Assembly: GCA_024683155.1 (NCBI GenBank)
Contig: JAIKYN010000217.1
Coordinates: 1 to 37,111 of the forward strand
Direction: 5' to 3'
DNA length: 37,111 nucleotides
From: Lachnospiraceae bacterium
GTDB lineage: Bacteria > Bacillota > Clostridia > Lachnospirales > Lachnospiraceae
The notes under the pieces were generated by a model. It did no database searches, was not told the DNA's origin, and saw only the letters and a program-made list of their open reading frames with translations. This document shows positions 17,625 to 23,229 of the stretch, piece by piece. How positions within the stretch are numbered: position 1 is the stretch's first letter; each line of letters begins with the position of its first letter. The translations under genes and the position numbers were made by a program.

Positions 17625-18242
17625 ATGATCATTATCGCAGGCCTGGGAAATCCGGGAAGAGAGTACGAAAATACAAGGCACAATGTTGGCTTCGAAGTAG
17701 TGGATGCATTGGCAAGGAAGATCGGAGCTACGGCTTTTGGCAAAGAGGGAAAAGCACTGGTAGCCAAAGGGATCATCGCAGGAGAGAAGGTCCTGCTGGT
17801 AAAGCCGCAAACCTATATGAATCTTAGCGGAGAGGCCATTCGACCCCTTCTTGATTTCTATAAACTGGATCCGGAGGAAAGTCTGATCGTCATTTCCGAT
17901 GACATCGATCTTCCGGTGGGACATATACGGATCCGTCAGGGCGGAAGTGCCGGCGGACATAACGGACTGAAAAATATCATTCTCCATACCGGCACGGAGA
18001 AGTTCCCCCGGCTGCGTCTGGGGGTGGGACAAAAACCGGATGGTTATGATCTGGCCGATTATGTGCTGGGTCATTTTTCCGGAGAAGAGAAAACACTCAT
18101 GGAAGAAAAATTCGGGGAGGCAGCAGATGCCGTGGCACTGATGATCGAAGAAGATGTTTCCCTGGCCATGAACCGTTACAATACCAAGAAAGAGAAGAAA
18201 CCGAAGAAAACGGATGAGAATACTGACAGCACCGCTCCGTGA
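17625..18242 (+). CDS. pth: Peptidyl-tRNA hydrolase
   Basis: IIIAGLGNPGREYENTRHNVGF; KPQTYMNLSGEA; GGSAGGHNGLKNI; FPRLRLGVG. Confidence 0.97.
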   Translation: MIIIAGLGNPGREYENTRHNVGFEVVDALARKIGATAFGKEGKALVAKGIIAGEKVLLVKPQTYMNLSGEAIRPLLDFYKLDPEESLIVISDDIDLPVGHIRIRQGGSAGGHNGLKNIILHTGTEKFPRLRLGVGQKPDGYDLADYVLGHFSGEEKTLMEEKFGEAADAVALMIEEDVSLAMNRYNTKKEKKPKKTDENTDSTAP

Positions 18243-21200
18243 ACTGGGAGAATTTGAAGAAATTGAAAAGAGTATCCGACAGGAAGGGATCGTAGCCTTA
18301 ACCGGCTGCATCGACTCCCAGAAGTTTCACGTAGCCAGTACTCTGGCGGAATCCATGCGTTACAAGCTGATCATTACCTACAGTGAACAGCGTACACGGG
18401 AGATCTTTGAAGACTACAAACTTTATGACAGGAATGTCACAATGTTTCCTGCCAAAGACCTTATCTTCTTTGAGGCGGATATCCATAGTAACGAACTGAC
18501 CATTCAGCGTATGAAGGTGCTCCGTCGTCTGCTGGAAGGAAGACCCTGTACCATTGTAACTACTTTTGATACCTTGATGATGCCCATTATTCCTGTGGGA
18601 ACCATCGCAGATCATGTGCTCTCCATTGATAAGAAGACTTCCATCGATGAGACGGAGTTTGCCCGTACCCTGATCGCCATGGGCTATGAGAAGAATTATC
18701 AGGTGGAGGCGCCCGGACAGTTTTCCATCCGCGGAGGCATTATTGATGTTTTTGACCTGACGGAGGAAAACCCCTACCGGATCGAGCTTTGGGGAGATGA
18801 TATTGATTCTATCCGCAGTTTTGACCTTTTGAGCCAACGATCCATTGAATCGCTGGAATCTATTTCCATCTATCCGGCTTCCGAGATGATCCTTTCGGAG
18901 GAGCAGATGCGGGAAGGATTCGGAAGGATCCGTGAAGAAGCGGAGAAATATGAGGCTGCCCTTCGAGGGGAGTTTAAAACCGAAGAGGCCCATCGCATCA
19001 AGACTACCATAAAGGAACTGGAAGAACAGGTAGTGGAACTGCGGGCTTCGGTGAATCTGGACAGTTATCTGGGATATTTTTATCCGGATACGGACCTGTT
19101 CCTGTCTTTGTTTGATCAGAAAAAAACGGCCATTTTTATTGAAGAACCCGCCCGGGTGGAAGAACATGCAGGTGCCATCGAAGCGGAGTTTCGTGACAGT
19201 ATGAGCCATCGGCTGGAGAAGGGTTATATCCTTCCCGGCCAGACCCGTCTTCTTATGGAGAAGGAAAAGGTGGCAGCAGGGCTGCAGAAGTATCACACTG
19301 TTACGTTGTCGGCGCTGGATACAAGAAGCAGTTTTCTGAAACCCAAGGCGAAATATGACATTCCCTCGGTGGGAGTGGCCTCCTATAATCAGTCCTTTGA
19401 ACTGCTGGTGAAGGACTTGAAGCGTTACCGCAAGGAAGGATACCGCGTGCTGGTGCTTTCGGGATCGAGAACGAGAGCCAAACGTTTGGCCGGAGATTTA
19501 CTGGACCAGGAGCTGACAGCCTTCTATACGGAGGATCCGGACCGGGAACTGCAGCCGGGAGAGGTGGCTTTATTTTATGGCCGCGTTCTGAAGGGATTTG
19601 CCTATCCCATGCTGAAGTTCGTAGTGATCACGGAAAGCGATATCTTTGGCGCGGAAAAGAAAAAGAAGCGGAAAAAGAGGCAGTACGAAGGCCAGAAGAT
19701 CAATGATTTCAATGATCTTAAAGTGGGCGACTATGTGGTGCACGAGAACCACGGCCTTGGTATTTACAAAGGAATTGAAAAAGTAGAGTCCGACCATGTG
19801 GTGAAGGACTATGTGAAGATCGAATACGGCGACGGAGGCAATCTCTATATTCCTGCAACGGGACTGGATGTGATCCAGAAATATGCTTCCGCAGATGCGA
19901 AAAAGCCTAAGCTGAACAAGCTGGGAACTCAGGAATGGACCCGGACCAAGACCAAGGTGCGGGAAGCCGTGGGGGTGGTGGCACAGGACCTGGTGGAACT
20001 GTATGCCCTTCGAAATCAGGAACAGGGCTTTCGTTTCAGCCCGGATACCGTATGGCAGCGGGAGTTTGAGGAGTCGTTTCCCTTCGAGGAAACGGAAGAT
20101 CAGCTGAGTGCCATTGCAGATACCAAGAAGGATATGGAAAGCACCCGGATCATGGATCGTCTTATTTGTGGCGATGTAGGCTACGGCAAAACCGAAATTG
20201 CCATCCGTGCTGCATTTAAGGCTATTCAGGACGGCAAACAGGTGGCGTTCCTGGTACCGACCACCATTTTGGCACAGCAGCATTACAATACCTTTAATCA
20301 GCGTATGAAGGACTTCCCGGTGCGGGTGGAAATGTTATCCAGATTCCGCACAAGTGCAGAGCAGAAGCAAACCCTGGAAAGACTCAGTCAGGGCCGGGTG
20401 GATATCGTGATCGGAACCCACAGACTGCTTTCCAAGGATGTATCCTTTAAAAACCTGGGACTGCTGGTGATCGATGAGGAACAGCGTTTTGGTGTGACCC
20501 ATAAAGAAAAGATAAAGAAAATGCGGGAAAATGTGGATGTGCTTACCCTGACGGCAACGCCTATTCCCAGAACGCTGCATATGTCTCTGATCGGTATCCG
20601 TGATATGAGTGTTCTGGAGGAAGCACCCAATGAGCGAGTGCCCATTCAGACCTTTGTTTGCGAATACAACGAAGAGATGGTGCGGGAAGCCATTACCCGG
20701 GAGCTGTCCCGTGGCGGTCAGATCTATTACGTTTATAATAAAGTAAATACCATTGCCGATATGGCTGCGCAGATCCAGAAGATGGTGCCGGAAGCCAATG
20801 TAGCGTTTGCGCACGGCCAGATGAAGGAAAGTGAGCTGGAACGCATCATGGTGGACTTTATCAGCGGGGACATTGATGTTCTGGTGACCACTACCATTAT
20901 TGAGACCGGACTGGATATTTCCAACGTTAATACCATGATCATTCATGATTCCGATGCCATGGGCCTGTCTCAGCTGTATCAGCTGAGGGGGCGTGTGGGA
21001 CGAAGCAACCGGACGGCCTACGCCTTTCTGATGTACCGGAAGAACAAGATGTTAAAGGAAGTGGCGGAGAAACGTCTTACGGCGATCCGGGAATTTACGG
21101 AACTGGGAAGCGGCTTTAAGATCGCCATGCGTGATCTGGAAATCCGCGGAGCCGGTAATCTGCTGGGTAAGGAACAGCACGGGCACATGGCAGCGGTAGG

Positions 21201-21738
21201 ATACGATCTGTATTGTAAGATGCTGGATGAAGCGGTAAAGACCCTGAAAGGCATTGATATCAGCGAGGATTTTACAACCTCGGTGGATCTGGATGTGGAC
21301 GCATTCATCCCGCCTTCTTATATCGCCAATGAAATCCAGAAGCTGGATATTTATAAACGGATCGCAGACATTGAAAGCGACAGCGAGAGCGAAGATGTAA
21401 GGGAAGAACTGTTAGACCGGTTCGGAGAGATTCCTCCATCCGTAGAAAACCTGATGCGGATCTCCCGCATGCGTGGCAGAGCCCATAAGCTGTTTATCAC
21501 AGAGCTGCGGGCCAAGAACGAGGAGATTTCCGTTTTGCTGAAGCCCGATGCGGGCCTTAAGGTGGAAGGAATCCCGGAATTACTACAAAAAGAAGGCAAA
21601 AACCTTACCTTCCAGAGCAAAGGCAACCCGGCGTTTTACAGTCGTTATGAAAAAGCGGAGCTGAGAGAAAAAACAGAAGAGAACATCATGAAGGCAGTAG
21701 ATCATCTGCTGCAGAGCATGGAGGAGGCACTACTGTGA
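18214..21738 (+). CDS. mfd: Transcription-repair coupling factor
   Basis: 1174 aa; CarD-like RNAP-interaction region (VGDYVVHENHGLGIYKGIE), DRLICGDVGYGKTEIAIRAAFKA, DEEQRFGVTHKEKIK, TLTATPIPRTLHMSL; overlaps the pth 3' end. Confidence 0.97.
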   Translation: MRILTAPLRELGEFEEIEKSIRQEGIVALTGCIDSQKFHVASTLAESMRYKLIITYSEQRTREIFEDYKLYDRNVTMFPAKDLIFFEADIHSNELTIQRMKVLRRLLEGRPCTIVTTFDTLMMPIIPVGTIADHVLSIDKKTSIDETEFARTLIAMGYEKNYQVEAPGQFSIRGGIIDVFDLTEENPYRIELWGDDIDSIRSFDLLSQRSIESLESISIYPASEMILSEEQMREGFGRIREEAEKYEAALRGEFKTEEAHRIKTTIKELEEQVVELRASVNLDSYLGYFYPDTDLFLSLFDQKKTAIFIEEPARVEEHAGAIEAEFRDSMSHRLEKGYILPGQTRLLMEKEKVAAGLQKYHTVTLSALDTRSSFLKPKAKYDIPSVGVASYNQSFELLVKDLKRYRKEGYRVLVLSGSRTRAKRLAGDLLDQELTAFYTEDPDRELQPGEVALFYGRVLKGFAYPMLKFVVITESDIFGAEKKKKRKKRQYEGQKINDFNDLKVGDYVVHENHGLGIYKGIEKVESDHVVKDYVKIEYGDGGNLYIPATGLDVIQKYASADAKKPKLNKLGTQEWTRTKTKVREAVGVVAQDLVELYALRNQEQGFRFSPDTVWQREFEESFPFEETEDQLSAIADTKKDMESTRIMDRLICGDVGYGKTEIAIRAAFKAIQDGKQVAFLVPTTILAQQHYNTFNQRMKDFPVRVEMLSRFRTSAEQKQTLERLSQGRVDIVIGTHRLLSKDVSFKNLGLLVIDEEQRFGVTHKEKIKKMRENVDVLTLTATPIPRTLHMSLIGIRDMSVLEEAPNERVPIQTFVCEYNEEMVREAITRELSRGGQIYYVYNKVNTIADMAAQIQKMVPEANVAFAHGQMKESELERIMVDFISGDIDVLVTTTIIETGLDISNVNTMIIHDSDAMGLSQLYQLRGRVGRSNRTAYAFLMYRKNKMLKEVAEKRLTAIREFTELGSGFKIAMRDLEIRGAGNLLGKEQHGHMAAVGYDLYCKMLDEAVKTLKGIDISEDFTTSVDLDVDAFIPPSYIANEIQKLDIYKRIADIESDSESEDVREELLDRFGEIPPSVENLMRISRMRGRAHKLFITELRAKNEEISVLLKPDAGLKVEGIPELLQKEGKNLTFQSKGNPAFYSRYEKAELREKTEENIMKAVDHLLQSMEEALL

Positions 21739-23042
21739 CACAGGAGCAAAATACCAGAAAAAAAAGACCCGGAAGTATGACAATCCCTTTGATGAGCATG
21801 AGCATGCTGCCATTGGTCCTTATGAGTCTGGTCATTGCGGTGGTTTCTTCCTACCTGGTACGTATGGCGGTGGAGAAACAGGTAAAGAACGATCTGAAGA
21901 ATGTGGCATCTGCAGTGGAAGTGACATTGGATACCTTTTATCCCGGAGATTATGAGATGGTGACCACAGAGGGTGGCCTGGTGTTCTGCAAGGGAGAGCA
22001 GATCCTCAGCAGTCACTATGATCTGCTGGACCGATTCCGGGAAGAGACCGGGATCGAGGTAACCTTGTTTTATCAGGATGCCAGAGTACTGACGACGATC
22101 ACGGATCCGGACGGAAATCGAATGGATGGCACCGGCCTTCATACGGTGATCAAAGAACAGGCGCTGGATCGCCAGAAAGAGGTCTTTTATTCCGGCGTAG
22201 CCATCGGAGAGATGCGATTTTTTGCATATTACAGACCCTTATATAATTCCGATAACGAGTTGTTTGGCCTGATCGGCGTGGCAACCCCCACGGCTACGGT
22301 ACAGGGAGCGGTGAGCTCCGTGATCTGGCCCATTGTTATCATTGCCATTGTAGGTGCGGCCCTGGCAGCACTGATCAGCGTACTGTACAGCAAGAATCTG
22401 TTAAATGCCCTCAAGAAGATGGAACAGTTCCTTTCTCAGGTTTCCAGGGGACGACTTACGGCTACTTTGGATGAAAGCGTCTCCAAACGTAAGGACGAGA
22501 TCGGTAAAATGGGAATATCCGCAATGGAAATGGAAAAGTCTCTGCGGGATCTGATCGAAAAGGATGCGCTTACCGGCTTATATAACCGAAGGTACGGCAA
22601 TTCCAAGCTGTCGGATATGTGGAGGAAGGCATCCAGGACCGGGCAGCAGTTTGCCATTGCCATCGGTGATATCGACTTCTTTAAGAAGGTAAATGATACT
22701 TATGGTCACGAATACGGAGATCTGGTACTGAAAAAAGTATCGGAAGTTCTTCGCCGGAACATGGGCGGTAAAGGCGTTCCCATCCGTTGGGGCGGCGAGG
22801 AATTCCTGTTTATCTTTGACGGGATCGGCAAGGCCGGAGGTACGGAAGTGCTGGAAGATATACTGGACCAGATCCGGGCTCTGGATATCTATACGGAGAC
22901 CGGTGAGGTGATCAAGGTTAGCATGACCTTCGGAATCGTGGAAGGAGACAGTACCAGATCCGTAGATGAAGTGGTATCCGAAGCAGACACCCGGCTTTAT
23001 GAAGGAAAACGAGGCGGCAGAAACCGCATCATAGAAGATTAG
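21735..23042 (+). CDS. Membrane-bound sensor diguanylate cyclase (N-terminal Cache-like sensor, HAMP-like linker, GGDEF)
   Basis: Two TM segments; DALTGLYNRRYGN; active-site GGEEF (RWGGEEFLFIF). GTG start overlaps the mfd stop. Confidence 0.88.
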   Translation: MTQEQNTRKKRPGSMTIPLMSMSMLPLVLMSLVIAVVSSYLVRMAVEKQVKNDLKNVASAVEVTLDTFYPGDYEMVTTEGGLVFCKGEQILSSHYDLLDRFREETGIEVTLFYQDARVLTTITDPDGNRMDGTGLHTVIKEQALDRQKEVFYSGVAIGEMRFFAYYRPLYNSDNELFGLIGVATPTATVQGAVSSVIWPIVIIAIVGAALAALISVLYSKNLLNALKKMEQFLSQVSRGRLTATLDESVSKRKDEIGKMGISAMEMEKSLRDLIEKDALTGLYNRRYGNSKLSDMWRKASRTGQQFAIAIGDIDFFKKVNDTYGHEYGDLVLKKVSEVLRRNMGGKGVPIRWGGEEFLFIFDGIGKAGGTEVLEDILDQIRALDIYTETGEVIKVSMTFGIVEGDSTRSVDEVVSEADTRLYEGKRGGRNRIIED

Positions 23043-23053
23043 AGTCCCTTTTA

Positions 23054-23081
23054 TTGGACACAAGACCTGCTAAATTATAAC
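23054..23081 (+). promoter_or_regulatory. Candidate promoter for the 35-aa ORF
   Basis: TTGGAC-16 nt-TATAAC; predicted start near 23088. Confidence 0.4.
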
Positions 23082-23121
23082 CAGGAAATGAAAACCCGGT
23101 TTTGTTTAGGAGGTCTTTTTT
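23062..23121 (+). terminator. Terminator-like hairpin overlapping the Shine-Dalgarno of the next ORF
   Basis: AAGACCTGCTAAA (23062-23074) pairs with TTTAGGAGGTCTT (23105-23117), 12 of 13 bp, followed by a T-run to 23121. Confidence 0.65.
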
Positions 23122-23229
23122 ATGAAAGGATATAGTGTAGAAAACGGATATATGGGCTATGTAGAAGGAAGTTACCGTCTGTTCTGTGACGAGGGTGAAT
23201 ACATCGAATATATGGAAGAAGAGGCATAA
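23122..23229 (+). CDS. Small hypothetical protein, 35 aa: MKGYSVENGYMGYVEGSYRLFCDEGEYIEYMEEEA
   Basis: TAGGAGG SD 9 nt upstream of ATG; complete ORF, below the 60-aa cutoff of the supplied track; acidic C-terminus. Confidence 0.75.
   Translation: MKGYSVENGYMGYVEGSYRLFCDEGEYIEYMEEEA

Follow-up and report, generated by a model that had tools for sequence, protein, structure and literature searches.

A promoter-embedded hairpin as a candidate guard of a Lachnospiraceae miniprotein gene against read-through RNA

We analysed the window, a 37,111-nt stretch that forms contig C205 in a 78% complete draft genome of Lachnospiraceae-like type, and propose, with a probability of roughly three in four, that the hairpin in front of a small-protein gene at 23122..23229 (+ strand) insulates this tightly controlled gene against read-through. 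According to this reading, which draws on sequence comparison, the gene would be transcribed from its own promoter, composed of AGTCC-N8-GGACA over the -35 region and an extended -10, with start at A23083. The activator would most likely be a WYL-domain transcription factor, and the gene would be part of a LexA-independent DNA-damage/defence response, with an inducing signal presumably of that kind. A 13-nt stretch over the promoter spacer and the -10 is complementary to the SD region; RNA entering from mfd and the diguanylate cyclase gene would carry this stretch, fold and load no ribosomes, and with the U-tract behind its stem it may also terminate. RNA started locally would begin 3′ of the stretch, leaving the SD open, and the protein would be made. 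The 35-aa product is presumably costly or harmful if produced at the wrong time.

Such a chromosomal read-through-silencing device would be maintained by selection in many genera, chiefly at sites where the gene is exposed by its neighbours, and the pattern of hairpin and exposure would serve as a natural experiment indicating that ordinary bacterial genomes have to cope with transcriptional read-through as a selective problem. Further leads are a testable promoter class and regulator for the response of major gut bacteria to DNA damage, and a new family of miniproteins under tight guard in gut-type Lachnospiraceae.

Structure and conservation of the hairpin

The small gene lies downstream of mfd (18214-21738), which runs into the region upstream of the cyclase gene, and of a co-directional sCache_3-GGDEF diguanylate cyclase gene (21735..23042, + strand), both assigned from open reading frames and Pfam; a Bmp/PnrA-like lipoprotein and ABC operon is present 3′ of it. 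The promoter palindrome begins at the base right after the cyclase stop codon, and a sequence scan of the + strand between 23042 and 23122 found no terminator-like site. The 5′ arm of the hairpin, AAGACCTGCTAAA (23062..23074, + strand), overlaps the promoter spacer and the -10 and would be present only in upstream-derived RNA; it forms Watson-Crick pairs with the 3′ arm, TTTAGGAGGTCTT (23105..23117, + strand), at all of the 13 positions but one, G69-G110. The 3′ arm contains the SD (TAGGAGG, 23107-23113), and a six-T tract (23116..23121, + strand) stands directly before the start codon at 23122. In all of these features, that is the coordinates and 12/13 pairing of the stem, the T residues running right up to the ATG and the SD inside the 3′ arm, the original prediction was correct.

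RNA folding was carried out on the segment 23060-23124, which gave -21.6 kcal/mol as compared with -9.9 ± 2.6 kcal/mol for dinucleotide shuffles (z -4.6; none of 200 shuffles was as stable), whereas RNA beginning at 23082 or 23088 showed no unusual structure (z 0.2 and 0.04, respectively). The predicted cost of opening the SD was 13.9 kcal/mol in the long RNA and 2.7 kcal/mol in RNA from 23083. The stem is followed by six U, as in an intrinsic terminator, and the tract may add intrinsic termination of read-through RNA. No Rfam match above the gathering score was obtained, and a known riboswitch or RNA family was rejected on this ground.

Comparison of homologous loci indicated that the hairpin is kept as structure and not as sequence. 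When the 5′ arm of each locus was paired with its own SD, this pairing beat 95% of the cross-species pairings in 58% of 67 deduplicated loci, as against 12% and 7% for upstream and coding controls, and the mean pairing energy was -16.2 kcal/mol with the own SD vs -9.6 kcal/mol with mismatched ones; in an independent set of 15 loci, own-arm pairing beat 95% in 10. In an alignment of 14 same-register loci, which was put together manually from both arms in one register after the folds had been seen and therefore leans towards structure, 93% of the cells were paired and 7 of 14 base pairs carried double-sided changes, a result reached by none of 500 shuffles; sliding the partner by one column reduced the pairing from 93% to about 50%. 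Covariation upstream of homologous small ORFs, which the original prediction had named as a check, was thus observed. Outside these 14 loci, the arms differ completely in sequence and pair in other registers.

In 47 of 49 hairpin loci the median SD-pairing nucleotide precedes the predicted +1 (in 19 of them also the -10), and only read-through RNA is therefore predicted to be able to form the hairpin. Over 67 loci, opening the SD cost on average 6.7 kcal/mol when the RNA was long and 1.6 kcal/mol when it began at +1; from long to short RNA the cost dropped by more than 2 kcal/mol in 41 loci and rose by more than 2 kcal/mol in none. The core idea of the original prediction, an SD hidden in read-through RNA and a 5′ arm absent from local RNA, thus gains comparative support from pairing maintained under changed sequence, from the position of the SD partner and from the way in which the hairpin tracks exposure.

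Exposure to read-through and competing explanations

If the hairpin is a guard against read-through, it is expected where read-through threatens. Using automatic gene calls on draft genomes, we scored 82 deduplicated loci for exposure, a locus counting as exposed when a co-directional gene abutted it without a terminator. Exposure was found in 35 of 48 hairpin loci and in 3 of 25 loci without hairpin (35:13 vs 3:22, OR 20, p=1e-6), and with one locus per synteny cluster the ratio was 16:7 vs 2:16 (p=3e-4), these Fisher p-values being optimistic as the sequences are related and phylogenetic correction is incomplete. The association was stable across a grid of thresholds. The upstream gene was co-directional in 45:3 of the loci with hairpin vs 15:10 of those without, its stop codon lay at a median distance of 14 nt vs 74 nt, and a separate terminator stood in between in 4 of 45 vs 8 of 15 cases. 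The upstream neighbours themselves vary (mfd, phoU, tyrS, aspartokinase, EAL, MarR), and unexposed loci often have an opposite-strand neighbour or a separate terminator instead. The hairpin is missing in about one third of the homologous loci, which is mostly, not wholly, explained by lack of exposure; L081 is exposed to read-through yet has no hairpin, and 13 of 48 hairpin loci were scored as not exposed by the automatic gene calls.

A plain intrinsic terminator or 3′-end stabiliser of the mfd-diguanylate cyclase operon, with SD hiding as an incidental effect, would account for the stem and T residues of the window, for the occurrence of hairpins mainly behind co-directional neighbours without another terminator, and for the U-tract found in 22 of 48 hairpin loci. 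However, the 26 hairpin loci without U-tract showed the same exposure association (18 of 26 exposed vs 3 of 25, p=4e-5), by which SD hiding can be told apart from plain termination; moreover, the paired element is the SD itself, and a terminator with no other role would be free to lie at any intergenic position, with no need to overlap both promoter and SD. We thus regard this explanation as unlikely. Since about half of the hairpins have no U-tract, SD hiding rather than termination would be the common function, and where the original prediction had offered "termination and/or hidden SD", sequestration is the part common to all hairpin loci and termination appears to be secondary.

It is less probable again that the hairpin belongs to the normal mRNA, made from a farther-upstream promoter, and works as a regulated SD switch (a thermometer, or a protein or sRNA target). 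Strong SD sequestration in the long RNA would suit such a switch, and an upstream promoter is conceivable, but the signature of -10 and YR initiator is embedded in the structure with invariant spacing and recurs before unrelated genes mostly without hairpins. The arms vary freely in sequence and register and contain no conserved ligand-like element, no Rfam match was obtained, and in L022 and L026 a separate terminator abuts the promoter motif, leaving little room for another promoter there. Action of the inverted repeat as DNA, either as a dimeric-repressor operator or as an invertible promoter segment, is very improbable; although the repeat overlaps the -10, its arms are 30 nt apart, wholly different between species and tolerant of G-U pairs, their pairing is register-specific, and whether a hairpin is present varies with the orientation of the upstream gene, which should not matter to a DNA operator.

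The promoter and its candidate regulon

Alignment of homologous upstream regions revealed a conserved promoter, AGTCC-N8-GGACA-N7-TGN-TANNNT, with invariant spacing, which in the window occupies 23043-23076 (AGTCC 23043-23047, GGACA 23056-23060, TGC 23068-23070, TAAATT 23071-23076). Its palindrome (23043..23060, + strand), a putative site for an activator of the WYL-domain type, is centred over the -35 region, and its distance from the -10 is the same in most homologous upstreams, with 10 nt between GGACA and the -10; no -35 consensus was found at the expected place. A motif score of at least 10.3 was reached by 64% of 128 homologous upstreams; among the controls it was reached by 1% of the shuffled sequences, 5.5% of the reverse complements and 3% of the regions lying farther upstream. 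The extended -10 of the window, TGC-TAAATT (23068..23076, + strand), is intact in the sister species (L002), and across 83 aligned homologous promoters TG was present in 63-72%, TA in 88-100% and the final T in 100%, figures for which the scoring partly selects the -10 (TANNNT) that it then displays.

Seven nucleotides past the -10, at a position not selected by the motif search, A was present in 72 of the 83 homologs, and among 107 non-homologous promoters of this type the start position was a purine in 89% and the preceding base a pyrimidine in 76%. Because this YR initiator stands at the same position in homologs and unrelated promoters, transcription is predicted to start at A23083 (+ strand), which is preceded by C and lies inside the hairpin loop, downstream of the 5′ arm. 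The loop geometry claimed earlier therefore still holds with corrected elements: the start had been placed at 23088 instead of 23083, and the promoter had been read as TTGGAC-16-TATAAC, whose letters are present and which does mark the right spot, but its hexamers were mis-assigned and it went unreported in a generic sigma-70 scan. A generic sigma-70 promoter was rejected, as L002 reads TGGGAC...TAAAAC, so that TATAAC is lost in the sister species; TTGGAC was likewise rejected as a -35, since GGACA makes up one arm of the palindrome, which keeps a fixed distance from another -10.

An exact-pattern search of public genomes found the promoter in more than 100 stretches, nearly all from Lachnospiraceae and Oscillospiraceae. 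It precedes recA (L148, L155, L159), addB (L172, L125), hsdM/hsdR (hsdM in L110, L114, L190, L206, L247), M78 peptidases, Cas3-like HD proteins and WYL-domain regulators (L111, L141, L151, L154, L177). A related pattern, applied to 150 family genomes, matched about 68 times vs about 22 times for the reversed control. All of 25 genomes carrying the miniprotein had an ortholog of the WYL factor of the window genome, as did 12 of 25 genomes lacking it, and in 22 of 129 loci a WYL factor was situated no more than about 750 nt away from the miniprotein gene; no promoter motif was found before the window genome's own WYL gene. Since the promoter precedes recA, addB, hsdM and WYL genes, the WYL factor co-occurs with or adjoins the miniprotein gene and the promoter geometry is DriD-like, these sequence associations suggest a candidate LexA-independent DNA-damage/defence regulon of WYL type in Clostridia, an assignment based on gene association and on geometry common with DriD promoters, from which the half-site sequence differs. 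Two identical weaker motif matches, GACCCACATTTTGGACATAAAAAATGATAGAAT, were obtained when the own genome was probed by pattern (G000:C70:151-183 and G000:C169:4162-4194); the pair is perhaps a repeated element.

The hairpin was rejected as a general trait of this promoter class, being found with only 11% of the other genes vs 5% expected, several of them tiny genes. As the class is mostly without hairpins and its exceptions include several more genes for tiny proteins, this suggests that the guard may be reserved for products not to be made by accident. A second family of 37-44 aa (MExELRYVRGHVEVYDAxGxFxFSADTExEAxxEL) was found under the same promoter in Oscillospiraceae-type genomes (L142, L162, L180, L201, L208, L214, L223, L228, L242) and, in a wider sample, in 7 of 392 genomes; L162, L208 and L214 also pair the promoter region with the downstream leader. 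Homology of this family to the miniprotein was unsupported by profile comparison. A broader proposal, which we hold only tentatively and with somewhat more doubt than belief, is that Lachnospirales and Oscillospirales share an undescribed WYL-controlled, LexA-independent damage/defence regulon (recA, addB, hsdM, WYL factor, several tiny-protein families) whose tiny effectors repeatedly evolved promoter-embedded anti-SD hairpins and are translatable only from their own promoter, read-through silencing being a general rule for dangerous small chromosomal genes.

Some further observations were made on the promoter class. Other short ORFs with the same promoter, some membrane-like (L185, L186, L233), show strong pairing of promoter region and leader. 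In L109, L111 and L119 a terminator-like hairpin with a T-run comes right after the promoter motif, its 5′ arm starting a few nt from the -10; local RNA would lose part of this stem, a possible transcriptional version of the same insulation. The promoter pattern was also found in 89 IMG/VR viral-contig stretches (L255-L334 among them), which may represent genes of prophages that have been coupled to the damage response of the host.

Known systems and the miniprotein family

Read-through RNA of the IS10 transposase gene folds back and hides its own ribosome-binding site, a protection from outside transcription. The same hiding is predicted here, but no transposon is involved and the complementary element overlaps the gene's own promoter, not a terminal repeat. 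IS10-type insertion-sequence protection was rejected, as the 35-aa miniprotein has no transposase relatives and the flanks are mfd/GGDEF on one side and the Bmp lipoprotein/ABC operon on the other. IS10 also uses antisense RNA (PMC4265352).

In T4, the genes e (lysozyme), soc, 49 and I-TevI have a long RNA folded over the SD and a short, open late RNA, with a measured translation block of about 100-fold for gene e (PMC3014915, PMC2988022). The present locus resembles gene e in that the SD of upstream-derived RNA lies in a helix, as judged from predicted fold, opening cost and covariation, and in that a promoter within the structure would yield a short RNA without the 5′ part, as judged from the position of the pairing partner (47 of 49 loci). 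In T4 the gene is downstream of others on a long polycistronic RNA, and the genome layout predicts the same here. The promoter is, however, of bacterial chromosomal stress type here and a phage late promoter in T4; the arrangement here is conserved over many genera with compensatory change, and its block is inferred where that of T4 was measured. The system would work like the T4 set without being a member of it, as a bacterial, stress-type, family-wide variant. As far as we could find, a family-wide read-through-silencing hairpin on a bacterial chromosome has no earlier description, the known cases being those of T4 phage and transposons.

DriD of Caulobacter and PafBC of mycobacteria are WYL-domain DNA-damage activators whose targets include DNA-repair genes and, for DriD, also the small protein didA; in DriD promoters a pseudo-palindrome covers a poor -35 and stands a fixed number of bases away from the -10, with ssDNA as the signal, and PafBC acts through a -26 element (PMC12340889, PMC11804915, PMC4211646). 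The promoters analysed here share with them the activator site at fixed distance from the -10, the lack of a usable -35, the repair-gene targets and, with DriD, a small protein. In contrast, the half-sites are GTCC..GGAC here and ATACGAC-N7-GTCGTAT in the DriD consensus given there, the WYL regulator here is putative, and the parts of these sources available to us describe no read-through hairpin for DriD/PafBC promoters.

The 35-codon gene at 23122, which encodes MKGYSVENGYMGYVEGSYRLFCDEGEYIEYMEEEA, is a real gene, because homologs were found in about 90 of 396 sampled family genomes, nearly all with E<1e-12 and with a clear gap to the remainder. Matches were obtained in 49 of 392 genomes of the order, and the genome search found nearly none beyond it. 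The family profile is MKGYxVxxGYMGYVxGxYMLFASExDYxEY, and AlphaFold2 gave a confident beta-beta-beta-alpha model (mean pLDDT 94). No relatives were found in Pfam, NCBIfam, PHROGs or PDB, Foldseek gave no significant structural match of the model in PDB, and the attempt to assign a function by sequence or fold was accordingly given up. A phage or plasmid origin was also rejected, with 2 partial matches in metagenomic phage records and 0 in plasmids. The gene is single-copy in its own genome. Two duplications, each about 14 kb apart within one genome, were observed elsewhere (L065/L085 in G193, L068/L075 in G364), and these pairs have a diverged promoter without a good AGTCC/GGACA match.
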